IMG/VR virus record: IMGVR_UViG_3300036826_000082
Location: 1 to 24,173 of that record
DNA length: 24,173 nucleotides
Source of the DNA: a virus
Strand: one strand, 5' to 3'
A model generated the notes under the pieces. The model saw nothing but the letters and a program-made list of their open reading frames with translations, did not search any database and was not told the origin of the DNA. A program made the translations under genes and the position numbers. This document shows, one piece after another, positions 4,953-19,252 of this stretch (its first letter is position 1; each line of letters starts with the position of its first letter).

Positions 4953-6310
4953 TATTCCGCCGTGTTAGTTAGCACATCGTTGTAGGTCGGATGTTTGGTA
5001 TTAACTTCATTGTAGTCAGCATTCGAGGCATCGAGGACGTTGTATGTATTAGGCTGTAGGATGATCGGCTCTGCCGGTTCACCCTCAGGACCTAACAATA
5101 GTCCGGCCGCCTTCTGCTGTATTGCGGCGTTGATAGCGGCTTCTGAACTTGTAGCGATCTCAGACTCATAGAAGTAAATCCGCATTTGGTTCGGATCATC
5201 ATCATAGCGCTCCTTGACTATGACAGTTTGGTTGCCCCATAAGTGCTCCTGCACCGCAGCAATCAAACGCTCAATCGACCCGCGATTCCATGAGGAGAAT
5301 TTCTTCATCCTCGGGATCTGACGACCTAGGTAGGCGGCCTCATCGTCGGCGGGGTTGTATACGGGCGCCCAGTAACCGGCGATCTGCGAAAGCCAAGGGA
5401 CCCACTGTGGCTTTACCCGAGTAGCATCAAGGACCTGCGACCAGCCAGGCTCACCGTGCAAGCCGTCCTTGCTTACGTCACGAACCTCTTGCATCATCAA
5501 GCCAATGCCACGCAGATAGGTCCAGAATGTTTTATCTGGATCACCGACATTTCCCCACATCGGCTCAAACTCGGGGTAGAGAGTATCACCCATCTCGAAC
5601 TTCTGATACAAAAGCTCATATGGCCCGGGGAAGCCGTCAACATTTGCGTTCAGGCCATCGAATGTAATCTTGATACCACTTCCGGTTTCACTAGCCATCT
5701 GGAACATACCCATGCGAATGCGGTTACATGAAATAGCCCCGGCAGTCCTGAACCCTGAAGCGACTATCACCTCATCAGGCTTCTTGCTATGAAGATCTCT
5801 ATAGAAGAAGCGCGCCTCCGCACGTCCAGATGGCGCCGAACCAGAAAGCTCGATACCGTATTCGATCCTAACATCCTTATTGGCAGGAAACTTAACACTG
5901 CATTCATTGCCAATCGGATCGGTGCCGGTATCACCAGAATACCACTGCATGCATCCATCATCCTCAACACGCAGTGAAATGATCGGCGAATAGTCCGGCT
6001 TCTGGATCTGCAATAGTGTCCAAATATCATCCGGCAGCTGGCTAACGTTCAAGTACAATCTGCCAAAGATCCTGCTGTATATGTACTCGGTCGGCACTCT
6101 CCATGCTACATAGCAATCAGACGGAGGATCTGATTGCTCCCACTGGAGAGCATGGTCGCCGATACCGAAAGTTGCTCCGTCTATGAGATGCGGATGTCCC
6201 GTTACAGTCTCGAATCCGGAATCAACCTTTTCAAACTCAGCACTCGTGACCTCATCTCCGACCTTGCCTGCCGAGAAGTCACGGTTCAATGGGTAGAGAT
6301 AAGTCGTCAT
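4952..6310 (-). CDS. Baseplate/tail protein with gpI-like C-terminal half
   Basis: A 452-residue protein directly after baseplate J, the usual position of P2 gpI-like tail proteins that link baseplate to fibres. Residues about 230-400 (LYPEFEPMWGNVGDP, FWTYLRGIGLMMQEV, PQWVPWLSQIAGYWAP, MKKFSSWNRGSIERL) resemble the gpI-like region: aromatic-rich, with a W-x2-WLSQI-type core and an RG-S-x4-I helix. Residues about 1-225 are beta-rich (YVAWRVPTEYIYSRIFGRLYL, GRAEARFFYRDL) and may be a jelly-roll or lectin-like domain, an uncommon addition. The C-terminus contains YNVLDASNADYNEVNTKHPTY, repeating an N-x-Y-N pattern that could dock a fibre. It is linked to J by an ATGA overlap. Confidence 0.7.
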   Translation of the reverse strand: MTTYLYPLNRDFSAGKVGDEVTSAEFEKVDSGFETVTGHPHLIDGATFGIGDHALQWEQSDPPSDCYVAWRVPTEYIYSRIFGRLYLNVSQLPDDIWTLLQIQKPDYSPIISLRVEDDGCMQWYSGDTGTDPIGNECSVKFPANKDVRIEYGIELSGSAPSGRAEARFFYRDLHSKKPDEVIVASGFRTAGAISCNRIRMGMFQMASETGSGIKITFDGLNANVDGFPGPYELLYQKFEMGDTLYPEFEPMWGNVGDPDKTFWTYLRGIGLMMQEVRDVSKDGLHGEPGWSQVLDATRVKPQWVPWLSQIAGYWAPVYNPADDEAAYLGRQIPRMKKFSSWNRGSIERLIAAVQEHLWGNQTVIVKERYDDDPNQMRIYFYESEIATSSEAAINAAIQQKAAGLLLGPEGEPAEPIILQPNTYNVLDASNADYNEVNTKHPTYNDVLTNTAE

Positions 6311-7785
6311 ATGGTTGCCACCTGTACGTCAACGATACCAGGCATTGTTAGCGGGAACACACCCGGCAACGGCTTATCGTCATCATCAGAGGTCCCGGAT
6401 CCATTCACACCGAAAGCTAGATCTGTAACCCAATCCACACCCTGCACATTATTCAGCTCGGTGTAAAGTTCCTGCCCGCGCAAGACTGTTGCCTGTCCCC
6501 ATCCACGCGAATCCGGAGGCCACTCTACATTGCCCCAGTTCTTCGGTAGCAGGAAATCATGTACCGCTTGCGTTGCGCGTGTTGAAACGTCTACATCATC
6601 GTAGCCGATCCGCTTAACGACTGTAGCTAGACAATCTACAACCGAATAGGCCGGGTCGATTACGTTCACGATGAAGTTCTGCTGCTTGAGAGATCTGAGG
6701 TAGAGTTCCAGGGCATCACGAAGGGGAGGGTTCAGCGGATTGCCATCAATATCAATCGCAGCCACGGCAACCGCATTGGCAACGTACTCCTGATTAGCAG
6801 AGGCCGCCTGCGTCGTTGTGATTATCGGCCCTGCACCGCCGGTTACACTATTATTCGGAATTGTTAGCGTTGGTACATCAGTCTGCCCGAGCCGACCAAC
6901 AAACTCGAATGTAACAGCAGTCTCAGGCAGCGGCCCACCCAAGAGCCGGTAGTCCCCAGAGTACAGGGCCAAAGGCGCAATCGCCGCGCGAACCTCTTCT
7001 ATGGTCGCATTGTAGTTTATGGGATTTGATACATTACCGTCATAACCTAGCGTGAAGGTGCCACCGGTTCCAACTACGGATAGCTGCTGAATCTCATTGG
7101 CGCCGGGGATGTAATTGTCGAGCGCAACGGCGCGCCATACTCCCGGCACATTACGGGCCATGATAGCGAAGTCTTCAGCCAATATGGGGCGTGGCGGGAT
7201 GAGTCCGAAGTTATTCGTCATCCGGTTGAGGTAATCCTCATCCGACTCCGGATCAATTCCGCCCGAACTTACGCTCGTAGTGAAGGCATTGATGAGCCAG
7301 TCATAGTGCTCTATGGTTTCGACCAGCCCTGTAAGATTGTTCCCCGAAATCCCCTCATCCTGCGCTATGAGTATGACATTATTGATCTGCGTCTGCCCTT
7401 GCGGGATCGTCTGGTCGCCTTCAACCTCAAACAAGATCAGGTCCTGCGAATCTAGATTGCGAATGCCGACGACCGTCCCATCATCGATCGTGTATGGCCC
7501 GTTCGCATCCATAGCGACGAAGGTCGCCAATACCGAAGCTGTCGAACCATCGAGAGGATGGATGTTGGCAACGGTCGCACCGAAGTAACGGTAGATGGCT
7601 CGCATCACCATCGTCGCTGCATCAGCAGAGAGCGACTGGTGCAACGAAATGATACGCAGCACAATCCAGTCGAGCTGGCCCTCAGACGGCCGCCAATCAG
7701 GGAATACATCCTGGATGTAATCCAGAGCGCGGTCGAGCAACTCGTCGGGATCAGTCTCAATCGGTTCGAGGATATAGTCAGGCAT
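6307..7785 (-). CDS. Baseplate J-like protein (baseplate wedge)
   Basis: A 492-residue baseplate wedge component of the gpJ/gp47 family that helps build the wedge ring and triggers sheath contraction. The N-terminal helical part (residues 10-75) leads to DGTVVGIRN and an FEVEGDQTIPQGQT strand region, then GISGNNLTGLVE and the conserved IDPESDEDYLNRM at about 177-189, all typical of the family. Residues about 231-330 are an extra beta domain (GTFTLGYDG, INYNATIEEVRAAI, LLGGPLP, VTFEFVGRLGQTDVPTLTI) of the kind found as repeats in other phage tail proteins. The family core resumes with VAVAAIDIDGNPL. It is coupled to gp25 by TAATG. Confidence 0.88.
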   Translation of the reverse strand: MPDYILEPIETDPDELLDRALDYIQDVFPDWRPSEGQLDWIVLRIISLHQSLSADAATMVMRAIYRYFGATVANIHPLDGSTASVLATFVAMDANGPYTIDDGTVVGIRNLDSQDLILFEVEGDQTIPQGQTQINNVILIAQDEGISGNNLTGLVETIEHYDWLINAFTTSVSSGGIDPESDEDYLNRMTNNFGLIPPRPILAEDFAIMARNVPGVWRAVALDNYIPGANEIQQLSVVGTGGTFTLGYDGNVSNPINYNATIEEVRAAIAPLALYSGDYRLLGGPLPETAVTFEFVGRLGQTDVPTLTIPNNSVTGGAGPIITTTQAASANQEYVANAVAVAAIDIDGNPLNPPLRDALELYLRSLKQQNFIVNVIDPAYSVVDCLATVVKRIGYDDVDVSTRATQAVHDFLLPKNWGNVEWPPDSRGWGQATVLRGQELYTELNNVQGVDWVTDLAFGVNGSGTSDDDDKPLPGVFPLTMPGIVDVQVATI

Positions 7786-8123
7786 TACTCCGCCAGTGTT
7801 TTAACAGTTGCGATGAAGTCTCGAACAAGCTCATCAACTTCAGGTCGCTCCTCTATGTCTATAACAGCACGGGGTTCCCATTGCTGCAGCGCGGCTTTGA
7901 TAGTCATTTCCAGAGATTCATCAGTCGTAAGCTTGAATGCTATGTCAAGTGTACCGAAGTCCGGAAGATCATCACGCTGCTCTAGCGGCCACCAAAGAAC
8001 CGTCCGTGCCGAGTCGAGCACATCATCGGAAGTGTCCTGTTCATTAACATATGCCGCGCCATTAATACTGCCAAATCGAAATGGCAGGCTAAAGTGCGGT
8101 GTTGTAACATCAATTTGTCTCAT
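7785..8123 (-). CDS. gp25-like baseplate wedge protein
   Basis: A 112-residue protein of the gpW/gp25 (T4 gp25-like) family, a wedge component that contacts the sheath. Visible features are PFRFGSINGAAYVNEQDTSD, a VLDSARTVLWWPLEQRDDLPDFG segment matching the family LxTxxGxRxxxPxFG motif, and a C-terminal helix-strand pair ending VKTLAE. I start it at 8123 because a GAGG lies 6 nt upstream; an in-frame ATG at 8135 would add four residues but has no close ribosome-binding site. The start overlaps the preceding gene by 14 nt. J follows at once, the normal gp25-J-I order of contractile tails. Confidence 0.85.
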   Translation of the reverse strand: MRQIDVTTPHFSLPFRFGSINGAAYVNEQDTSDDVLDSARTVLWWPLEQRDDLPDFGTLDIAFKLTTDESLEMTIKAALQQWEPRAVIDIEERPEVDELVRDFIATVKTLAE

Positions 8124-8349
8124 CCGGGGCCTCATCGAGATTATCTAGGGCTCCCGGAGCCATCTCAACAGCGGTCGGCTGCTGCGGTGCAATAGCACCG
8201 TTCTCATCAACGACTCCGGAAGCCAGAACTTCACTAGAGCTGATGTTAACAATTGCGCCCTGCGGCAAGTTCATTGATTCAACAGCCGCACGCCCCTCCT
8301 CATTCGAGTCGGCCTCAAAGGTAACACTAACAAAAAAGTTTATTGACAC
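8110..8349 (-). CDS. Hypothetical protein (79 aa)
   Basis: Begins at a GTG overlapping the stop of the upstream gene as TAGTG. The 79-residue acidic product starts MSINFFVSVTFEADSNEEGRAA, with a two-strand look, and then has a low-complexity Pro/Ala/Asp tail (AIAPQQPTAVEMAPGALDNLDEAP). No known motif. Its place between the fibre module and gp25 suggests a small tail or baseplate accessory protein, but nothing in the sequence proves this. Confidence 0.6.
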   Translation of the reverse strand: MSINFFVSVTFEADSNEEGRAAVESMNLPQGAIVNISSSEVLASGVVDENGAIAPQQPTAVEMAPGALDNLDEAPDETN

Positions 8350-8568: not shown

Positions 8569-9120
8569 CTATCCAACCCTCACAGGCGTTAACCGCATCC
8601 AACGCTTGGAATATCCAACAGGATTCGTAGAGTTTTGGCTGTACTGCTGCTTTACAACATTGCCTGCCGCCGCTACTGTGATAGTACCTTCAGCCATCAG
8701 CGTCTTTCCATAGGAATTACCAGTGGCATTAACTCCCTGCGGCTCAGAAACCGTCCCAGAATTAGTACAAGCAACTACACACTGAGTCTCAGTTGGAGTT
8801 CCCGACTGATTCGCACAAACTGCGCCGTGGCCGACCTGGTACAAACCCGCCAACGGCATCACAAATGATGGACTACCCGATAGATCACTCCAAGTGTTGG
8901 ACACAGCTAAATTTGCTGAGGCCGCGACAGAAGCGATTAGCGGTGGGCCGCCAATGACTTCCCATTTCTGTGTATTCGGAGACACCGCTCGAAAGCGTAG
9001 ATGCCATACAATCCCGTTAGCAGCATCAGCGAGGAAGCGGATCTCTTGTCCATCAATCGGATTGGATGGGAGACTTGTGTAGAGCGATGTACGCTTATCG
9101 GATGCAGATTGTTTACTCAT
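8569..9120 (-). CDS. Stand-alone copy of the fibre C-terminal module (putative receptor-binding/tail protein)
   Basis: A 183-residue protein starting at an ATG that overlaps the stop of the large fibre gene as TGATG. From about residue 17 on it aligns with the last 165 residues of that fibre: PSNPIDGQEIRFLADAANGIVWHLRF against PTNPIDGQECYFVADAANGVLWHLRY, KWEVIGG against KWEWIGG, MPLAGLYQVGHGA against LPLAGEYQVLNGA, and RWMRLTPVRVG against RWMRIRPNRVG. The two are therefore paralogues. The middle of each is strongly diverged, as expected of a surface exposed to host variation. It probably forms part of the fibre tip, either as an extra subunit or an alternative one. Longer frames to 9165 exist but lie within the upstream gene. 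Confidence 0.72.
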   Translation of the reverse strand: MSKQSASDKRTSLYTSLPSNPIDGQEIRFLADAANGIVWHLRFRAVSPNTQKWEVIGGPPLIASVAASANLAVSNTWSDLSGSPSFVMPLAGLYQVGHGAVCANQSGTPTETQCVVACTNSGTVSEPQGVNATGNSYGKTLMAEGTITVAAAGNVVKQQYSQNSTNPVGYSKRWMRLTPVRVG

Positions 9121-11738
9121 CAACCTACCCTGTTCGGACGAATGCGCATCCAACGATGACGACAATAACCGTTGCTGGCATTAGTTTGTCCGTAGAAACG
9201 CGCGGTCGCTCCTGCTGTCGAAGTCAAGATCTTGTTGCTCGCATGGGACGGGTAAAGAATCGGAGCGCTTGACTGATAGAACCCGATTCCCTGAGTTGTA
9301 GTGGGTGCCGCCGATGCTGTGAAAACTTCAGCATACGACCAATTATTGGCAGTATCATTTCGGAGCATCGCTCCGTTTAGAACTTGGTACTCACCTGCCA
9401 ATGGAAGTATGATAGCCGGTAGAGAAAATTGCACAATAGTTGTGCTGATAAGTGTTTCTGTATCATCAGAAGCAAATAGCTCTCCACCTCCAATCCATTC
9501 CCATTTATATGGTGATGCAGAACCTACATTGTAACGTAAATGCCACAAAACACCATTTGCGGCATCGGCGACAAAATAGCACTCCTGACCATCAATCGGA
9601 TTAGTCGGCAAAGTAACAACACGCGGAGGCCCTATTACACCAGGCGCATAAGCTGAGACTGTATCTGTATCAAACTCAACAGAAGCAATATCCCATTGAG
9701 TTGGATTAGCATATCCCGACAAATATACTAATTGAACAGTTCCACCTGAGGTTATATACATACTCGCCGGAACACCAACACCACCTTGCGCACCAGCCAC
9801 AATGAAACGAACATAGTTATTTGGCGGGCGATAACCAACAGGAAGTGTGAAAGCAGCACCGCCGCCGGACGGCCCGTTTATGTTACCGCGCAACATAACT
9901 TTACCATCCGGCGACTTGCGAAATTGAGCTACCTGATCAGTAGCATTTGAGAATCCAGCACCAAATGCTGGTTCACCTGCTGCCCCCACAGTATGCCAGG
10001 TATCAAGCGGCTGTGCGGCTACCGAAGCAGTTTGAAGAACGCTTTCGGTGTCAAATATGATCGTTGATAGATCCAACCAGCCAACAACAACAGCCCCTGG
10101 TCCAGTCATAAGTTTGACAGTTCCGTCCGACCCCACATCCACTCTACCTACCTGCTCATTAGGAGTAGAGGCGCCTGAAAAAGTACGGACATTGAAGATA
10201 TAAGTCTGTGGCGGACGATAGCCAACAGGCAGTGTGAATATAAGTTCGCCATTAACAAAGTTGCCACTGCTCTTGTTAAGCAGACCGATGAGTGTAATAT
10301 ACCCATCTGGTAGCTTGCGGAACTTACAGGCAACCTGCCCTGAATCTAGTGACTTCCATGCGTTCTGGAAAGCGGGCTCGCCTGCCGCACCAACTGTGTG
10401 CCAACTATCCATGGTTATGGCCAGCGTAGACTGTGTGCCTGCCGCTTGCACCATAACCGTTAGTTCACCAACAGCAGGAACATATACCGAAGATGTACGA
10501 ATAGTTACTGTATTTACACCAGTACGTTCGACATCGCATTCAACTTCATCATACGGTGGCGCGGTTCGGAATACAGCAACTCCTACATTGCGACTATTGA
10601 AGTTGTGTGTAATAGTGAATGCAGTTGCCGCGCCATCACCTATAACCTGGGTGTATACTTGACCACCATCCACACCCTTAAGTGCTGAACCAGAATCAAC
10701 ACTGACACCTGTGATCTTGATTATCTGCGCGATAAGGACATACGGCGGCAAGTTGTTATGCGCGGTCGAGGCGTCGGAACCGGTGACCGCGTGGGAATGC
10801 CGTGCGCTAGCGCCGCCTGTTGCTGATTGCTGGCCCTTGTTATATGTACCAGCAGAGCCAAGATTGCCGCCACTCGTCCAGTCGCTCACAACTCCTGCGG
10901 CCGTATAGTGGGCGTGGTCAGGCGAATCAACGCCAGTGGTTATGGCCTTCTGCGCGGCCTCGGCGGCCGTCAACAAATGCGCTGCTTCACCGCCGGTTAG
11001 ACCTTGGCTAGCTAGGTCAGGTGCGCCATAAATGAACTTCGACCGCAGATCAGGGATGTTGTATGTAGTAGATCCATCCCCAGAACCATACTTGGTTCCC
11101 AATTGCGCGAACAACTGCGAGTAGACTGAGCGAGACAAAGCACGGCCATCACACAATACCCAATTGTCCGGTATCGTCTGGCCAGAGAACGCCTTCACAG
11201 TGCCGATGGCATCTGTATCATATACAGTTCCTACCGGACCGGTATCACCCTTGTCGCCCTTATCACCCTTATCGCCTTTGTCACCTTTCGCGCCGGTTGC
11301 GCCAGCGGCACCGGCGGGGCCAGTATTTCCTGTATCACCCTTCAGGCCTTGAATACCTTGCGGGATACCGAACCGAAAATCAAAGTGGTTTGGAGTCGGT
11401 TCTAGAACAAGTACTGAAGCGGGTGATCCCGGAGCGAGCGTCGTCGCCTCAGCCTGCGCAGAAACATCTCCACCGCCACCGCCGCCGACCGGAGCACCAT
11501 CATCACGTGGTATCCAGTCGACGATCCATTGCTGGCCACCGTTCTCATCCTGAGCCAAAAGACAATAGTCACCGCGCTTGGGGATCGAGACACCAAGCGA
11601 GTGCGACCATTTCGGACGGAATTTGATAGGCCCCGTGGTGACGCGGCTAACGTAGAGCAAGTCCGGCGTTGTAACCCGGACAGAGGCGTCCGCATCTGCT
11701 GCATCATCAGCAATCTGGCCATTAAAGAACTGAATCAT
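9120..11738 (-). CDS. Large mosaic spike/tail-fibre protein (collagen-like repeats, collar domain, C-terminal modules)
   Basis: An 872-residue virion protein made of several modules. Residues about 1-80 resemble the N-terminal OB-like domain of baseplate spikes (LLYVSRVTTGPIKFRP, GDYCLLAQDENGGQQWIVDW). After a Gly-rich linker, residues 128-170 are 14 perfect Gly-x-y triplets with four GDK in a row, a collagen-like trimeric stalk. A tail collar domain follows at about 174-240 (NWVLCDGRALSRSVYSQLF, YNIPDLRSKF), then HxH-bearing loops to about 342. Two repeats start WHTVGAAGEPAF at 446 and 581 and share FTLPVGYRPP. Residues 708-872 form the module repeated by the next gene. It probably reaches the receptor. 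It is coupled to the hub by ATGA. Confidence 0.85.
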   Translation of the reverse strand: MIQFFNGQIADDAADADASVRVTTPDLLYVSRVTTGPIKFRPKWSHSLGVSIPKRGDYCLLAQDENGGQQWIVDWIPRDDGAPVGGGGGGDVSAQAEATTLAPGSPASVLVLEPTPNHFDFRFGIPQGIQGLKGDTGNTGPAGAAGATGAKGDKGDKGDKGDKGDTGPVGTVYDTDAIGTVKAFSGQTIPDNWVLCDGRALSRSVYSQLFAQLGTKYGSGDGSTTYNIPDLRSKFIYGAPDLASQGLTGGEAAHLLTAAEAAQKAITTGVDSPDHAHYTAAGVVSDWTSGGNLGSAGTYNKGQQSATGGASARHSHAVTGSDASTAHNNLPPYVLIAQIIKITGVSVDSGSALKGVDGGQVYTQVIGDGAATAFTITHNFNSRNVGVAVFRTAPPYDEVECDVERTGVNTVTIRTSSVYVPAVGELTVMVQAAGTQSTLAITMDSWHTVGAAGEPAFQNAWKSLDSGQVACKFRKLPDGYITLIGLLNKSSGNFVNGELIFTLPVGYRPPQTYIFNVRTFSGASTPNEQVGRVDVGSDGTVKLMTGPGAVVVGWLDLSTIIFDTESVLQTASVAAQPLDTWHTVGAAGEPAFGAGFSNATDQVAQFRKSPDGKVMLRGNINGPSGGGAAFTLPVGYRPPNNYVRFIVAGAQGGVGVPASMYITSGGTVQLVYLSGYANPTQWDIASVEFDTDTVSAYAPGVIGPPRVVTLPTNPIDGQECYFVADAANGVLWHLRYNVGSASPYKWEWIGGGELFASDDTETLISTTIVQFSLPAIILPLAGEYQVLNGAMLRNDTANNWSYAEVFTASAAPTTTQGIGFYQSSAPILYPSHASNKILTSTAGATARFYGQTNASNGYCRHRWMRIRPNRVG
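11229..11357 (-). repeat. Collagen-like Gly-X-Y repeat (14 triplets)
   Basis: Encodes residues 128-170 of the large fibre: 14 uninterrupted Gly-x-y triplets, including four successive Gly-Asp-Lys. The DNA is repetitive with mixed synonymous codons. Such stalks trimerise in phage fibres and can vary in length by recombination. Confidence 0.9.
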
Positions 11739-13810
11739 GTCTGCCGCTCGACTCGCTTATCTGTACTTTGTGGTGCAGGTGTACCGGGTGCCGGTCGCCC
11801 ACCCTGCGTTAGACGACAACCGAAGTGCACATGATTCCAATGCCCACCACCCGCATCCGTGCGGTATAGGAGCTGATACCTAAACCGGTCGTCTGTATGT
11901 TCCCAGATCCCGTTGCCCTCATCTACCAGATGGAATATGTCCTGCAGCTTCTTGGCGAGCTGGTCCATTTCCTTGGTAGGCGCAGTACGGTCAAAGTTGC
12001 CCTTTGACGTATTCGACATATCCGCCGCCCAGGCATACCACTTCGGACCCTTATGGTCCGAGACATTGCCCGAGGTTGTATATGTCGAGTGCGCATTATT
12101 GGCGGCATTTACACCAGCAACCGTAGTGCCATACGTCGCGCTCGAACCCAGGATCTTGCGTGCCTGAGGAATGACGATTTTGTCGATGACCTCATAAGCG
12201 AGCATGCCGTGTGTATCGGCATACGTCGCGCCATCATCGGCATTGCCAACGGTCTTTGAACCTACATCGTGCGCTGGCTCCTTCTTCTTGCGCAGAGGCT
12301 TGATAAGAGTGATAGTGCCGGTCTGCTCAAACATGCTCCGCTTAATATTGCTCACAAGCCAGCGACCGCGCGCCGGGCCACCATCGTGCGGAGCTTTCCC
12401 ACCGGCCGCGCCATACCGGCCGAACGTAACCACCGTGCCGACCGGCGCAACCCAGCGGTCCATACGCACACTAAGGGTCATCTCTTGCAAACCCTTCGGC
12501 GCGGAATTGTTCCAGCTGAAGCTGATGCCTTCGATGCCTTCCTCATCCTTGTAAAAGCGCATCCGCGACCGCGACCGAAACAAACGCTCGTAATCAATCA
12601 AGTACAGAGTATCCCGGACCCAGAAGGATGCCCAGTTAACCTGACCCATTAGACGATAGATCGCCGCGAGGTAGTTCTCACCATTCTCATTCGGGTCCGA
12701 ATCGAACTCATATGTCTTAGGATATGATACCGTGACTGTCTGGCTAGTTAGGTCAGCGTTATCGCTGCCCATCCAGATCTTTACATCTTTCTTCGCCTCA
12801 TCCCAGACCTTCTGGATCTTGCCAGGATAGCCCTGGTTAACAGCGCCCTGCGAAGCTTCGGCTACATACGGCCATGGAGAATTTGGCATCTCCTTGCGCT
12901 TCTTCAAAAGTGCATCCCACATAGCCGGGGCATCACCCTCAATAGTCTCCGTACCAGGCCACCACTTTGGGTTCTGCTGAAACGCGCCCAAGTACGGTGG
13001 GTTAGGCGGCTTTGGGTGATTGCTAATACCGGATTCGACTATCCCAATTGCGAGACCACATATCAGGGCGTTGCCGTGTGCACCATGATTAACACCAATG
13101 CGCAAGGTGTCGTTGATGTTCTCTAGTTGCTCACTGTTCGCAGGCTGACCATTTACAGTGTAGCCATCCTCTTTGCCTGAACCAGGTAGCCGCTTGGCAT
13201 CTGAGCTAGTCTTTGTCTCTTTGTCACCCTTCGCAATGGGCTGCTTCTTGTGGAGTTCAGGACAATAGACGGGGATCTTCGTTACCTTTACAGAACGCAC
13301 TAGCTTATTGACCGTGAACTCGGCACGCGTCATCTTATTGCGGCTCACATGCACACGCTTGTTGTGGTACATAATGTACTTCGCGTTGCGTGTGATGAAG
13401 GTCAAGGTAATATCGTCGTCGTCAACCTCGATCCCATCAAGACGATACCACCGGCGCTCATTAACCTTTATGTCAATAGCATGCTCTAGCGCCCCGGAAT
13501 TCAGCAGGCGCCATTCCGGGTCATGAACCGTAAGCTTGAAGGTTGGCGTTGCATCAATGCTCTCCTCGAAGACAGCATCAACTACCAGATCCTTGATATT
13601 AGCTCCGCGCTTTTTGTCTTTCTTATCACCAAGGATGTGGAGATAGATTGAAGTTACATCGAGGTCACGCTTGAGATGGCTTATCTCATCATCGATATTG
13701 TCCTGCCCTGCATTCGCGGTGTTCTTACCCGATGTGATACTCGGCACAGCGCGAGTATTGCCGGACAGGTAGTCAACGGCGCGAATGTTGCTGTCAAGCG
13801 GAAGCGTCAT
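11735..13810 (-). CDS. Baseplate hub protein with embedded lytic transglycosylase-like and C-terminal M15-like peptidase domains
   Basis: A 691-residue protein at the hub position, after the LysM protein. The framework at about 50-180 and 350-505 (SIYLHILGDKK, TFKLTVHDPEW, WYRLDGIEVDDDDITLTFI, LYLIDYERLFRSRSRMRFY, GTVVTFGRYG) resembles gp27/gpD-like hubs. Residues about 238-345 form an insert: NALICGLAIGIVESGI, YLGAFQQNPKWW, PYVAEASQGAVNQGYPG. It fits actinobacterial lytic-transglycosylase-like domains, with Glu259 as likely catalytic residue. Residues about 535-668 carry S-D-H586, A-A-D597 and GHWNHVHFG (His657, His660, His662), the zinc ligand pattern of M15-type peptidases. It could thus cut both glycan and peptide bonds during DNA entry. 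It starts by ATGA overlap. Confidence 0.82.
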   Translation of the reverse strand: MTLPLDSNIRAVDYLSGNTRAVPSITSGKNTANAGQDNIDDEISHLKRDLDVTSIYLHILGDKKDKKRGANIKDLVVDAVFEESIDATPTFKLTVHDPEWRLLNSGALEHAIDIKVNERRWYRLDGIEVDDDDITLTFITRNAKYIMYHNKRVHVSRNKMTRAEFTVNKLVRSVKVTKIPVYCPELHKKQPIAKGDKETKTSSDAKRLPGSGKEDGYTVNGQPANSEQLENINDTLRIGVNHGAHGNALICGLAIGIVESGISNHPKPPNPPYLGAFQQNPKWWPGTETIEGDAPAMWDALLKKRKEMPNSPWPYVAEASQGAVNQGYPGKIQKVWDEAKKDVKIWMGSDNADLTSQTVTVSYPKTYEFDSDPNENGENYLAAIYRLMGQVNWASFWVRDTLYLIDYERLFRSRSRMRFYKDEEGIEGISFSWNNSAPKGLQEMTLSVRMDRWVAPVGTVVTFGRYGAAGGKAPHDGGPARGRWLVSNIKRSMFEQTGTITLIKPLRKKKEPAHDVGSKTVGNADDGATYADTHGMLAYEVIDKIVIPQARKILGSSATYGTTVAGVNAANNAHSTYTTSGNVSDHKGPKWYAWAADMSNTSKGNFDRTAPTKEMDQLAKKLQDIFHLVDEGNGIWEHTDDRFRYQLLYRTDAGGGHWNHVHFGCRLTQGGRPAPGTPAPQSTDKRVERQT

Positions 13811-14562
13811 TCAAACGGAATGCCCAGCCGCGTGCCGGTCTTGAGCTTCTTGTGCGGGTCGCGGATGTTATTCTTCTGTGCGATCTTCCGCCATTTAGTC
13901 GAATCGCCATATACATCTTTGCGCTTGGCGATCTTAGGCAGTGTATCACCCTGCTTCGTTATGTACGTCCTGCCCTGATAGTACCCAGCAGCCCCTTTCT
14001 TGACGACCTTCTTGCGCCCTTGTTTGGCGACCTTAGCCCCCAGACGCCCAAAGACTTGTGGCTTGATGAACTGGCGAATTACTACAGAACCGCCACAACG
14101 TACACGATTGCCATAAGCATTGCGGATCTCAACATCTTCATTCCAGTCTACGTTCTCAATCACCCACTGCCCATTAGGGAAGGTGTTGTAGTCGTGAGGA
14201 ATTACGCCATCACTGAAGACCTTGAATGTCGGCGGAACGTCGGAGCCGCCGATCCCGCATAGCCGCTCAAGCTGTGTTATCTGCTGCTCGACCCGTACAC
14301 CGGGACCGGGGTTTTGTAATTGCGGATCTTGTTGGATGCTCTCAAACCAGTTATCGACCATGAACGGAATTCGGATCGCCATAGGGTTGCGACCCTTCCA
14401 CTCAGTAAGCCCGATATCCCGAGGCCGACCGCTAACCTCCCAACCACCATACCCGTCAGTAACAATCGGAGGCCCCTGCCCATACTTAGCTGTGAAGAAA
14501 TATTGCGTGTCGTTTGAATCCGCACGCACTGATTCAAACGTGAAGCGTGTGTAGTCAGGCAT
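13807..14562 (-). CDS. LysM-domain baseplate/tail protein
   Basis: A 251-residue protein joining tube end to baseplate, comparable to the LysM proteins (P2 gpX, T4 gp53 and PBSX-type) found between tape measure and hub. The C-terminal LysM is clear at about 197-251: RTYITKQGDTLPKIAKRKDVYG, WRKIAQKNNIRDP, LKTGTRLGIPFE. The N-terminal part is beta-rich (FTFESVRADSNDTQYFF, GGWEVSGRPRDIGLTEW, WVIENVDWNEDVEIRN) and is joined by a basic KKVVKKGAAGYY linker. I start at 14562 because GGGGCGAG precedes this ATG and because MPDYTRFTF follows; the frame runs on to 14631 but inside the tape measure gene. Start and upstream stop share an 8-nt overlap (ATGCCTGA). Confidence 0.8.
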   Translation of the reverse strand: MPDYTRFTFESVRADSNDTQYFFTAKYGQGPPIVTDGYGGWEVSGRPRDIGLTEWKGRNPMAIRIPFMVDNWFESIQQDPQLQNPGPGVRVEQQITQLERLCGIGGSDVPPTFKVFSDGVIPHDYNTFPNGQWVIENVDWNEDVEIRNAYGNRVRCGGSVVIRQFIKPQVFGRLGAKVAKQGRKKVVKKGAAGYYQGRTYITKQGDTLPKIAKRKDVYGDSTKWRKIAQKNNIRDPHKKLKTGTRLGIPFE

Positions 14563-16522
14563 TCTCGCCCCGGCGCGCTGCGATGTCAGCGTTATGCCGA
14601 TAGACAGCCTTGGCCAGAGTTTGCCTATCAACTTGCAAGTTGATATTTACTTGCGGCATATGGTCTGAAGTAGCCATCGGCGGAACGCCGGGGAACTCAC
14701 TCAAGGTCTGGGTCCGGGTTCCTATAGGCGTAATCATCGTGCCGAGTGGCGTGGTAGATGCCAGCTCCGTTCCACGTTCGCCAACAAGCGCTTCAGAACC
14801 AAATGGTATCAGTCCACCAAACTGCTTGCCCTGGATCCGCTTGAGCCAGTTATGCGGTAGCCACTTCTCGATTGCGCCCTTCAAACCACCGCCGCGCTCC
14901 AGAGCTTCATCAGCAGCCTTATCGAGTGGGCCCTTACCAGGTGACGTGAGCTTCTTGCCGCCTATTGATATCGACTCGATGGCGAGCGCTGCCGAAAGCA
15001 CAATCAAAAAAGGAAGCGCACCCATCAGGCCGGCCATGAAAGCGGCGCTCGCCGCCGAACCCGCTGCCGTAAACTGCGCCATCGCGGCTGACGCTGTGCT
15101 TGATGCAATAAAGGAAGCGATAAAGCGCTCAGCCATAACCCGACCAATAGCGCTGAAGATCCCGACCTTGTACAAGAAGTACCAGGCCATAAGAAGCTTA
15201 CCTTGCCAATCGGCCTTCAACCAAGCCTCGAAGAACTTTTGTACCGCTTGAGAGGCGACCTTGGCAAAGAAGTCCGACACCTGTGCTATCGCCTGCGACT
15301 GATCGGTGAAGACCAGGTTCACCCAATTACCCAGAGAGCGAAGATTGTCGAAGAACTGTTCGAACCACGCCTGCATCTTGCCGGTATCCGACATCCTCTG
15401 CAGCCAGTCATCGAACCGCGTGATGAGATCCGTCAAAGTATCGACGAACTGCCGACCCTGTTCCTTCGAGCCGCCGAAGAGGATCTTGAACATCCGCCCG
15501 ATGGCGCTCCCGAGCCTAGCCCAAGCCTTGAAGTGCTCGACTAGATTCGCCATCGTCCGGTCGAGCTGTGTCTGATCCCTCGATGACTTACGCCAAGTAG
15601 TCGTAAGCTTCAGGAACCACTGTGCGAATTCAACAACATAGGGCGCACTCGCCTTGAAAACACGACCTATGGTTATGATGACGTTCTCGAACGCCTTCCC
15701 GAGTGGCCCAGCGATCTGCTTGAACGTCCCACCAAGAACGGCAAGGGTTCCCTTCATCTCCTCACCGCTCAAGTTGCGAGCGAACGTCTTGGCTACAGAG
15801 CTAACGACAATTGCCGACTGATTCGTGATAGATGTAAATGTCGGCAACAACCGGTTAACACTCGACAGAATGTCACTCAGAGCCTTTGCCATAGCGTTGC
15901 GGCCCGGCCCTGTCTGTTTCGTAAATGTATCCTGCAGATTCTGCCACATCTGCACGATGCGGAAGGTCCGTGTACCACCCTGCTGCTGAATCACAGCCCA
16001 GAGCTTAGCTCCGGCCTTCGCTGCCTGATCACTATCCTTCCCGTACAGCTGCACAGCCAATTGCTGCTGTTCCCACGCAGTCTGTACCTTCTTGGTCTGC
16101 CCTAGAACCTGTGCACCGATCAGAGCAATGCCCGAGAGCCCCACGGCAAGCGAGGCTAGGCCGCCACCAGCTACACCAGCGCCACCTAGCGCGGCCGCTG
16201 CAGCGCTATTACCTAACGACAAAAGGGCTGGTGCCAGATAGGTGCCGATCGTTATTGCGAACGACGTTACCCCACGCTCGGTAAAGACAGCAAGCGCTCC
16301 AAACTTCCTCAAGTCCTTCTGTGCAGCGCGCAGGCCACCCCGACTCAATGAGCGCATCTTGCGCTCAAGAATTTCCGTCTCATGCTGGAGCGCCTTTGCC
16401 TTTACAGCGGCCTTGAGCTCCTCATCACCAAACTCATCAACAGAGGCAGCGGCAGCGTACATCTCGGCTTCAAACCGAGCCGCATCCTTGACCGTAAGAT
16501 GAGCTGTGATATCTTCGATCAC
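14555..16522 (-). CDS. Tail tape measure protein
   Basis: A 655-residue, mostly helical, Ala-rich protein that sets tail length. Hydrophobic stretches at about 86-150 (SFAITIGTYLAPALLSLG, LAVGLSGIALIGAQVLG) and 445-530 (LLMAWYFLYKVGIFSAIG, MGALPFLIVLSAALAI) are typical; in this family such stretches may insert into or cross the host membrane at DNA entry. The C-terminus has FGGLIPFGSEALVGERGTEL, the familiar GG-x-P-G-x-VGERG tail of many tape measures. No lysozyme or peptidase domain is seen in it; those are in the hub. At about 0.15 nm per residue the tail would be near 100 nm. It follows the chaperone genes, overlapping the GT stop by 4 nt. Confidence 0.88.
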   Translation of the reverse strand: MIEDITAHLTVKDAARFEAEMYAAAASVDEFGDEELKAAVKAKALQHETEILERKMRSLSRGGLRAAQKDLRKFGALAVFTERGVTSFAITIGTYLAPALLSLGNSAAAAALGGAGVAGGGLASLAVGLSGIALIGAQVLGQTKKVQTAWEQQQLAVQLYGKDSDQAAKAGAKLWAVIQQQGGTRTFRIVQMWQNLQDTFTKQTGPGRNAMAKALSDILSSVNRLLPTFTSITNQSAIVVSSVAKTFARNLSGEEMKGTLAVLGGTFKQIAGPLGKAFENVIITIGRVFKASAPYVVEFAQWFLKLTTTWRKSSRDQTQLDRTMANLVEHFKAWARLGSAIGRMFKILFGGSKEQGRQFVDTLTDLITRFDDWLQRMSDTGKMQAWFEQFFDNLRSLGNWVNLVFTDQSQAIAQVSDFFAKVASQAVQKFFEAWLKADWQGKLLMAWYFLYKVGIFSAIGRVMAERFIASFIASSTASAAMAQFTAAGSAASAAFMAGLMGALPFLIVLSAALAIESISIGGKKLTSPGKGPLDKAADEALERGGGLKGAIEKWLPHNWLKRIQGKQFGGLIPFGSEALVGERGTELASTTPLGTMITPIGTRTQTLSEFPGVPPMATSDHMPQVNINLQVDRQTLAKAVYRHNADIAARRGENA

Positions 16523-17742: not shown

Positions 17743-17756
17743 TCACCTCCTAGGCG
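17743..17756 (-). promoter_or_regulatory. Strong stop/ribosome-binding-site unit before the tail tube gene
   Basis: On the minus strand this reads CGCCTAGGAGGTGA. The TAG is the sheath stop codon and the AGGAGGTGA is the site for the tube gene. The same 14 nt occur before the major capsid gene at 22839-22852. Confidence 0.85.
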
Positions 17757-19252
17757 GGAATCTCTTCGGTGACCAACAGCTTCACAATCTCGATATACAC
17801 ATCCTCGCCGAAGGGGGACATCCTGCACGTGATCACCGCGTGCAGTTCATTGTTCGCCAGAGTCTCCGGCGTGTTGACACTGCCTGAGACATCGACCCGA
17901 TACGCCTGGTCCGGAGTATCGCCGAAGAGCGCCCTGTCGTTGAACAGAGGCAGCATCACGTGCGTGCTCAAGGTTGCGCCGAAGTCGCCGATGAGGACAC
18001 CCTTACCATCGATCATCCTGAAGACGAACCACTCACCGACTTCAGCCGACAGCGCAACTATGAGCCTGTGCAGCCGCACGTTCCCAAGCGGCAGCCAGTT
18101 CTTGTCGTTGTATGGATCAGCTAGAGTGCGGTAGCCGTAGATCTTCGTCAGGCCATACTGGGTCTTGATTACATTGACGCCAGACTGGTTCAGCTCACGC
18201 CGGTCGTCATCATCCCAGGACTGCGAGGCCCCGACAGCGGTGCGCACGACACCATTCGGTCCGGCCGAAGGCTCATTCGGATTCAAGCCATGGCCATCGT
18301 TGTATGACATAACGCCACACACGATCGGACTCGGCGGCACCCGCTTTGTGGTGCCCGTAACCTCACCGGGCACAACAACCCATGGAGCGAACAAGCCCGA
18401 GAACCGCGAGCGCTTGTTCGAGTTATCGAACACAGCATCAGCGGCGCCAATGAGGGTCGTTACATCAGCGGTATCAGGAGCGTCGAGGATCGCCACGCGG
18501 TTAAACGCCAAAGCGTGGTTTGCCAGGATCAGATGAGACGGGTCGGTCGTCTTACCCGGCGCGCACACCTGTCCAGGACCGAGGTCGGTGCTCGTATCAC
18601 TAAGTGCCGCTTCCAGATCATCATCATTCGGCGTTGCCGAGGAACCACCGACGAGGATGTAATTCGACCCTACAGGAATTAGGTCGCTCGGACCATCCTC
18701 CAGCGTTATGTATTTCGAGTTCTGCCCCCAGGCGAGCGCCGACAACTTATCGCCCGCCGTGAACAACTGCGAGCGCTCCTGATTCACACCGGATGCGTTC
18801 AGCGAGTCCTGGATAGCGATGTAGTAGTTGCCAATCGGGACCGTAGAGTCCATCGCGTTGTCTACTATAACAACAGCGATATTGTTGCTGAAGACACCTG
18901 GGTACTTGGCCTTTGCTGTGAAAACAACTTCAGCCGAAGCATCCGGAATGTCGATCTCAGCCGTAGCATCGCCCGCTCCAGTAACACGCACCACATAGAG
19001 CTTGCTGCCACCCTCACTGAAGTAGGAGTCGACAGCATCATACATCTGCTGCGACCCTACATCATTGCGCCCCGAGGGGTTGTACTTCTTTGTGAAGTCA
19101 CTGAGGTTGGTACACTGATCCTTGACCGTCAACTGCGACGGCACCGGGCCAGTCTGGGTAGTTCCCGCCATAAAGCACTGACCGACATCAGTCGGGATGC
19201 TCAGAGGCGGCGGGAACTCCCGCGTGGTGATGGTAACACCAGGACTAGACAT
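17750..19252 (-). CDS. Contractile tail sheath protein
   Basis: A 500-residue sheath subunit that shortens to drive the tube through the host envelope. It starts MSSPGVTITTREFPPP, the usual P-G-V-x-I-x-E opening. Further family features are SEGGSKLYVVRVTGAGDATA near residue 80, a variable middle domain (about 95-200), the NRVAILDAPDT stretch, a FSGLFAPWVVVPGEV core, and the C-terminal YGYRTLADPYNDKNWLPLGNVRLHRLI region followed by VEIVKLLVTEEIPA-like handshake strands. An AAGGAGG lies 6 nt before the ATG, inside the preceding small gene, with an 8-nt overlap (ATGTCTAG). This gene fixes the phage as myovirus-type. Confidence 0.95.
   Translation of the reverse strand: MSSPGVTITTREFPPPLSIPTDVGQCFMAGTTQTGPVPSQLTVKDQCTNLSDFTKKYNPSGRNDVGSQQMYDAVDSYFSEGGSKLYVVRVTGAGDATAEIDIPDASAEVVFTAKAKYPGVFSNNIAVVIVDNAMDSTVPIGNYYIAIQDSLNASGVNQERSQLFTAGDKLSALAWGQNSKYITLEDGPSDLIPVGSNYILVGGSSATPNDDDLEAALSDTSTDLGPGQVCAPGKTTDPSHLILANHALAFNRVAILDAPDTADVTTLIGAADAVFDNSNKRSRFSGLFAPWVVVPGEVTGTTKRVPPSPIVCGVMSYNDGHGLNPNEPSAGPNGVVRTAVGASQSWDDDDRRELNQSGVNVIKTQYGLTKIYGYRTLADPYNDKNWLPLGNVRLHRLIVALSAEVGEWFVFRMIDGKGVLIGDFGATLSTHVMLPLFNDRALFGDTPDQAYRVDVSGSVNTPETLANNELHAVITCRMSPFGEDVYIEIVKLLVTEEIPA

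Follow-up and report, generated by a model that had tools for sequence, protein, structure and literature searches.

Can a single baseplate hub protein of a phage carry both a glycan-cutting and a peptide-cutting wall enzyme, and how would the two be built into it? The question is raised by a gene in IMG/VR virus record IMGVR_UViG_3300036826_000082, of which we analysed positions 1 to 24,173, a stretch of 24,173 bases that we refer to as the window. An earlier note on this DNA had read the gene as a hub whose frame is interrupted by a lytic-transglycosylase-like insert and which ends in an M15-type zinc peptidase. Loci and domains used for comparison carry L numbers.

The hub gene and its neighbourhood

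The open reading frame proposed at 11735-13810 is intact and encodes 691 amino acids, and it lies on the minus strand, running from 13810 to 11735; the plus-strand translation of the same span is full of stops. All of the residues singled out earlier are found at the numbers given for them, namely Glu259 (in VESG), FQQNPKWW at 277-284, His586, Asp597, His657, His660 and His662. The whole hub had no match in Pfam, PHROGs, PDB sequences or 50,697 phage records, and two scans of genome contigs for relatives of the hub found none. We modelled the protein using AlphaFold2 with 27 family sequences, obtaining a mean pLDDT of 72 with most of the frame at about 80-95. Searched against the PDB with Foldseek, the model matched 9vzk (E 3.2e-7), 9cuy (1.2e-6), 1k28 (4.8e-5) and 3cdd (4.3e-4), and the hubs matched were those of P1, PhiTE, T4 (gp27), the Mu-like prophage MuSo2 (43K), contractile injection systems and the T6SS protein VgrG. 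The top matches of the full model were hub frames throughout, in agreement with the earlier assignment, and we infer a baseplate hub of the gp27/Mu-43K type that would form a trimer at the tail tip, by analogy with its solved relatives. The alignments to these structures contain far more columns than the length of the targets, as expected with an inserted domain.

In the model residues 219-352 form a separate all-helical domain between lower-confidence linkers. The hub frame is therefore parted into two halves by an insert, as had been proposed, within limits that we correct from 238-345. The hub of Brevibacterium phage Cantare is a bare frame of 285 amino acids, without the insert region and without the C-terminal region. 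Parts 11-100 and 181-307 of the frame profile align to residues 16-109 and 151-282 of the Cantare hub, with no space between them for an insert of ~134 residues.

The gene belongs to a minus-strand block in the order sheath, tube, tape measure, LysM protein, hub, fibre-fused OB-fold-like protein, gp25-like protein and baseplate J (Table 1). The cultured actinophages GMA6, Cantare and Jawnski, which are contractile, have the same order. That the tail is contractile is shown by the sheath gene, together with the tube, gp25-like and baseplate J genes. No peptidoglycan hydrolase family was matched by the tape measure protein of the window. The TTG start of the LysM gene overlaps the tape measure, and translation more probably begins at an ATG some 24 codons downstream. 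The protein encoded after the hub appears to combine a spike-like OB-fold segment with repeated fibre segments; its N-terminus resembles, by eye, a separate 109-residue protein that follows the hub in L001 (9953-10282), and gene 21 of Arthrobacter phage Jawnski is by appearance fused likewise. A ThyX-type thymidylate synthase gene (451-1338; PF02511, E 3.8e-30) is encoded on the plus strand, opposite the tail block. The closest relatives of both the baseplate J protein and the hub come from phages of Actinomycetota, and the host is therefore probably actinobacterial.

Table 1. Predicted features of the tail block, with positions in the window
Feature	Positions	Strand	Basis
Baseplate J-like protein	6307-7785	-	PF04865 E 1.3e-10
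gp25-like baseplate wedge	7785-8135	-	GPW_gp25 E 0.006 (weak), phrog_43 E 0.016
Gene after hub: OB-fold-like N-terminal segment fused to collagen-like, collar and fibre segments	9120-11738	-	Collar E 1.1e-20, collagen E 2e-7
Baseplate hub gene, 691 aa, two predicted peptidoglycan hydrolases	11735-13810	-	Intact ORF; AlphaFold2 model matches hubs; gene order
M15/LAS-like zinc peptidase candidate, residues 535-668 (H586 12053-12055, D597 12020-12022, H660 11831-11833, H662 11825-11827)	11807-12208	-	46% identity to L005, conserved His/Asp, tape-measure peptidase profile matches relatives
Hub frame, second half, residues 356-512	12275-12745	-	Family conservation; matches Cantare hub residues 151-282 without insert
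Inserted GH184-type muramidase domain (predicted), residues 219-352 (catalytic Glu259 13034-13036)	12755-13156	-	8b2h/8b2e profile match, phrog_10030, Glu in 26/26, all-helical model
Hub frame, first half, residues 45-215	13166-13678	-	Kept in 28 related loci (patterns MTRAEF, PELHK); frame profile matches Cantare hub
LysM protein directly upstream of hub, probable tube-hub adaptor with peptidoglycan-binding domain	13807-14631	-	LysM Pfam E 3.5e-6; same order in L001, GMA6, Cantare, Jawnski
Tape measure protein	14555-16522	-	phrog_305 E 4.9e-7
Tail sheath	17750-19252	-	phrog_23 E 5e-35

The inserted domain

Searched against the PDB, a profile built from 20 inserts of the family (A7) retrieved the GH184 muramidases 8b2h (E 7.5e-13) and 8b2e (E 1.4e-7), with homology extending over 120+ residues. 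Counting along the profile alignments places Glu259 in the column of Glu125 in 8b2h and Glu41 in 8b2e. Glu41 was found to be essential by mutation, and Glu125 is its counterpart (PMC10394673). The hubs of 14 of 25 relatives matched the tape-measure family phrog_10030, with a best E value of 4.9e-36, and insert-like domains are also present in the tape measures of Streptomyces and Rhodococcus phages. Among the inserts scored, that of the window diverges most (37.6 bits vs 54-158), and searched by itself against the PDB it returned only a chance-level match to DppE. Against a profile made from 19 relatives, with the window excluded, it scored E 1.9e-10 and none of 2,000 shuffled copies was reported, so that its resemblance to the family exceeds chance. 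From the family match to GH184 and the position of Glu259 on the essential glutamate, we conclude that the insert is a muramidase relative, with catalysis predicted from the computed homology, and not an established lytic transglycosylase.

Of the earlier description the glycan-cleaving type is therefore retained, and the transglycosylase label is not, as the kin of the insert are GH184 muramidases and actinophage tape-measure domains; we rejected it as a name for the insert family. A true lytic transglycosylase, which would release an anhydro product instead of hydrolysing the glycan, could nevertheless occupy this position in an otherwise unchanged hub. GH23 folds are related to those of the GH184 type. 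The Pfam SLT (GH23) profile, which found no match in the window hub, did match one of 25 aligned hubs (E 0.003). The nearest solved relatives, however, are GH184 muramidases that hydrolyse, and we consider a transglycosylase here rather unlikely.

Insert-type muramidase domains also occur in plasmid genes of Clavibacter, Pseudonocardia and Pimelobacter that are annotated as C40/NlpC-P60 peptidases (hits H50-H69), and some of these plasmids are predicted to be conjugative (PLSDB). Since the domain lies inside genes annotated in this way, it is possible that the muramidase and peptidase pair may also serve plasmid transfer.

The C-terminal domain and its exchange

The C-terminal domain of the window hub is 46% identical to that of L005 over 127 residues (E 2e-34), compared with 28% for the rest of the protein. 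The same domain type is common to the window, L005, L033, L034, L051, L052 and L053. Going by their names, the IMG/VR records of L033 and L034 may be numbered in the way of isolate genomes. His574, His586, Asp597, His657, His660 and His662 are the same in 7/7 homologues, whose identity to the window is 34-46%, and His660-Val-His662 forms an HxH motif in all seven. The identity to L005 together with these invariant residues indicates more than a chance resemblance. We also gathered, by homology, tape-measure peptidase domains from Mycobacterium, Gordonia and Rhodococcus phages. The resulting profile matches L033 (E 3.8e-9) and L005 (E 3.5e-5), and gave E 2.8 against the window C-terminus, no better than shuffles. 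Peptidoglycan hydrolase activity has been demonstrated experimentally for TM4 motif 3 (PMC1796659); VldE, to which this motif is related, belongs to clan MD and has R294, H301, D308 and H375 (PMC11667670). A profile of the C-terminal domain produced only a chance-level match among PDB sequences, and Foldseek with a model of the window domain (four-sequence alignment, pLDDT 72.6) gave no significant match and no M15 structure. As the model has no structural match and the fold rests on sequence linkage, we name the domain M15/LAS-like instead of placing it in M15; it is a candidate tied to the actinophage tape-measure peptidases through two relatives. The HxH motif, the conserved His and Asp residues and the linkage all favour the zinc peptidase proposed earlier, and the structural comparison does not extend this to M15 itself.

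The spacing from His586 to Asp597 had been noticed to exceed the usual H-x6-D, and it measures H-x10-D, in the window and in 7/7 homologues. The canonical position of the first His is taken by Lys590. At the position of the transition-state Arg the window has Val583, L005, L033, L034 and L053 have Arg, and L051 and L052 have Thr. The Arg-to-Asp distance of L005 is 14, the value also seen in VldE and in L039 and other tape-measure domains, and only the His shifts, from +7 to +3. The peptidase loop is thus altered, as suggested, in its non-canonical His and Asp spacing, but it is not longer, the Arg position to Asp again being 14, and the His has moved inside it. We accordingly rejected an insertion lengthening the loop.

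The moved His, the Val at the Arg position and the lack of a fold match would also suit a peptidase that has degenerated and now caps the hub structurally or binds peptidoglycan, leaving the muramidase insert as the sole catalytic domain. Conserved residues of this kind tend to disappear from enzymes in decay, however, and those of this domain remain invariant at 34-46% identity to the window. A peptidase is moreover present at the same spot in all other complete hubs of the family. We regard decay as unlikely, and favour an active peptidase candidate beside the muramidase.

To define this family, patterns of the hub frame were searched against 2.9 million viral contigs, giving 28 loci with 24 distinct hubs, 20 of them complete; the window and five more hubs found through the C-terminus bring the complete hubs to 26. 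Both the insert and a C-terminal peptidase are present in all 26, and as 20 were found by frame patterns alone there was no selection for enzymes in those 20. The C-terminal domain is of the NlpC/P60 type in 16, called by a DCSG or DCSA motif with Pfam-level support (E 0.01) in three, and M15-like in 10 (H-x10-D in seven, H-x6-D in three). L005 and L009 are 73.5% identical over the front 470 residues and have unrelated C-termini, M15-like and NlpC/P60 respectively, and the fronts of L028 and L051 are 53% identical with no significant match between their C-termini. On a tree of the frame the C-terminal labels need eight changes against a minimum of three. Such similar fronts with unrelated ends, together with the label changes, show that the predicted peptidase has been swapped as a unit, and we read the C-terminal position as an exchangeable socket for NlpC/P60 or M15-like domains. 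The tree and the pairwise swaps led us to reject one common origin for the M15-like C-terminus, the exact placements being unsure for the long branches of the window, L033 and L034. We tentatively suggest, as a possibility we would not yet call probable, that the H-x10-D domain is a new LAS-like subfamily in which the first zinc His has moved four residues with the loop length unchanged, and that the hub family is a built-in socket exchanging peptidase cartridges, perhaps tracking host cross-bridge chemistry, with the mid-frame muramidase fixed.

The family alignment also bears on the activity of the insert. The Asp66/Asp150 position of GH184, which is second-shell and ligand-stabilising, is Asn270 in the window insert, assuming an ungapped alignment; gp13 of phage phi29 carries Gln there (PMC10394673). 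In a subgroup of inserts, those of L024, L025, L028, L029, L030, L051, L052 and L053, the catalytic Glu is kept and the loop that follows is shortened or changed, and as a result their muramidase activity may differ or be lost. The divergence of the window insert, its missing Asp and these altered loops could mean that the insert is a worn-out lysozyme-like glycan binder and that the peptidase alone is catalytic. Against this, the Glu259 position is Glu in 26/26 aligned hubs and the Ser260 position is Ser in 24/26, and FQQNPKWW is identical in L001 at 29% overall identity, which makes a worn-out insert quite improbable. That neither region is an enzyme and both are ordinary beta domains of a hub, an outcome the earlier note had set against its own reading, could be argued from the hub-frame matches of the full model, but is hardly credible: it is contradicted for the insert by the all-helical model and the match to solved muramidases, and the bare Cantare frame lacks both regions.

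A proposed two-enzyme tip and its precedents

The reading that we consider probable is therefore that of a gp27-type hub of a contractile phage, its frame split by a GH184-type muramidase and its end carrying an M15/LAS-like peptidase candidate, the whole acting as a two-enzyme tip that opens the cell wall. Three hub copies, if placed about the tail tip in the manner of solved relatives, would present six catalytic domains, and contraction of the tail would bring these against the wall. The muramidase, with Glu259 as its acid, would cleave the glycan strands. The peptidase candidate, for which we infer zinc binding with His586, Asp597 and His662 as likely ligands, would cut stem peptides or cross-links, and the two together would open the wall locally so that the tube can pass.

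The family thus places two predicted wall enzymes on one protein, the inner fixed and the end exchangeable, in hubs with no whole-length counterpart in the phage records searched. With the Gordonia phages described below it forms a natural series of a bare hub, two single-enzyme hubs and one double-enzyme hub, useful for studying the passage of contractile phages through thick walls and a possible link between the choice of peptidase and host peptidoglycan. The H-x10-D domain offers in addition a candidate for an unusual zinc site that can be tested.

Two catalytic domains are frequent in the tail lysins of phages of Gram-positive bacteria (PMC9863714), and enterococcal tail proteins pair NlpC/P60 with lysozyme or M23 domains (PMC10194240). 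The hub-hydrolase CD1368 of diffocin, a contractile bacteriocin of C. difficile, has a predicted transglycosylase and endopeptidase on one hub (PMC13324602). The earlier note had thought both activities in one hub unusual, a view that finds no support, as every complete relative has both and diffocin is a published precedent. CD1368 is like the window hub in joining predicted glycan-cutting and peptide-cutting domains on one hub protein of a contractile system. Its enzymes are described as additional C-terminal domains, whereas in the window the muramidase lies inside the frame and the peptidase alone is C-terminal; the comparison of the two covered the Foldseek hub match 8v3w_H.

The Gordonia phages GMA6 (Orf36/Orf37) and ChisanaKitsune (47/48) share the frame family and gene order of the window, and a GH184-like muramidase and an NlpC/P60 peptidase, but distribute these over two adjacent hub copies with one enzyme each at the C-terminus, where the window has both on one polypeptide. 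Such duplicated genes, with GH184-like and NlpC/P60 ends, lie at 29518-32241 in L054 (GMA6 Orf36/Orf37) and at 6071-8792 in L057, so that these cultured phages may have a hub of mixed composition or two layers of it. The hub of Arthrobacter phage Jawnski has the frame and, by eye, one C-terminal CHAP-like domain, with no muramidase insert.

The tail-knob enzyme gp13 of phi29 combines a lysozyme-like domain, its fold closest to GH184 (PMC10394673), with an M23-like (LAS-type) domain, and so resembles the window in having both types in one tail-tip protein. It differs in having no hub frame, in belonging to a short-tailed phage and in being M23-like instead of M15-like. The muramidases KsGH184 (8b2e) and TtGH184 (8b2h) are fungal, and the window copy is divergent from them, without an equivalent of Asp150. 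The tape-measure peptidases of mycobacteriophages and of Gordonia and Rhodococcus phages, like TM4 motif 3 and VldE (clan MD), have the D...HxH layout and the Arg-to-Asp distance of 14 seen here (PMC11667670), but with H-x6-D, while the subfamily of the window has H-x10-D and resides on a hub. The C40-annotated plasmid genes of Clavibacter and Pseudonocardia match the window in the insert part alone, are plasmid-borne, and no hub frame was found in them. What is new in the window is therefore the insertion within the frame, the exchangeable peptidase and the moved His, on a two-enzyme principle that was already known.
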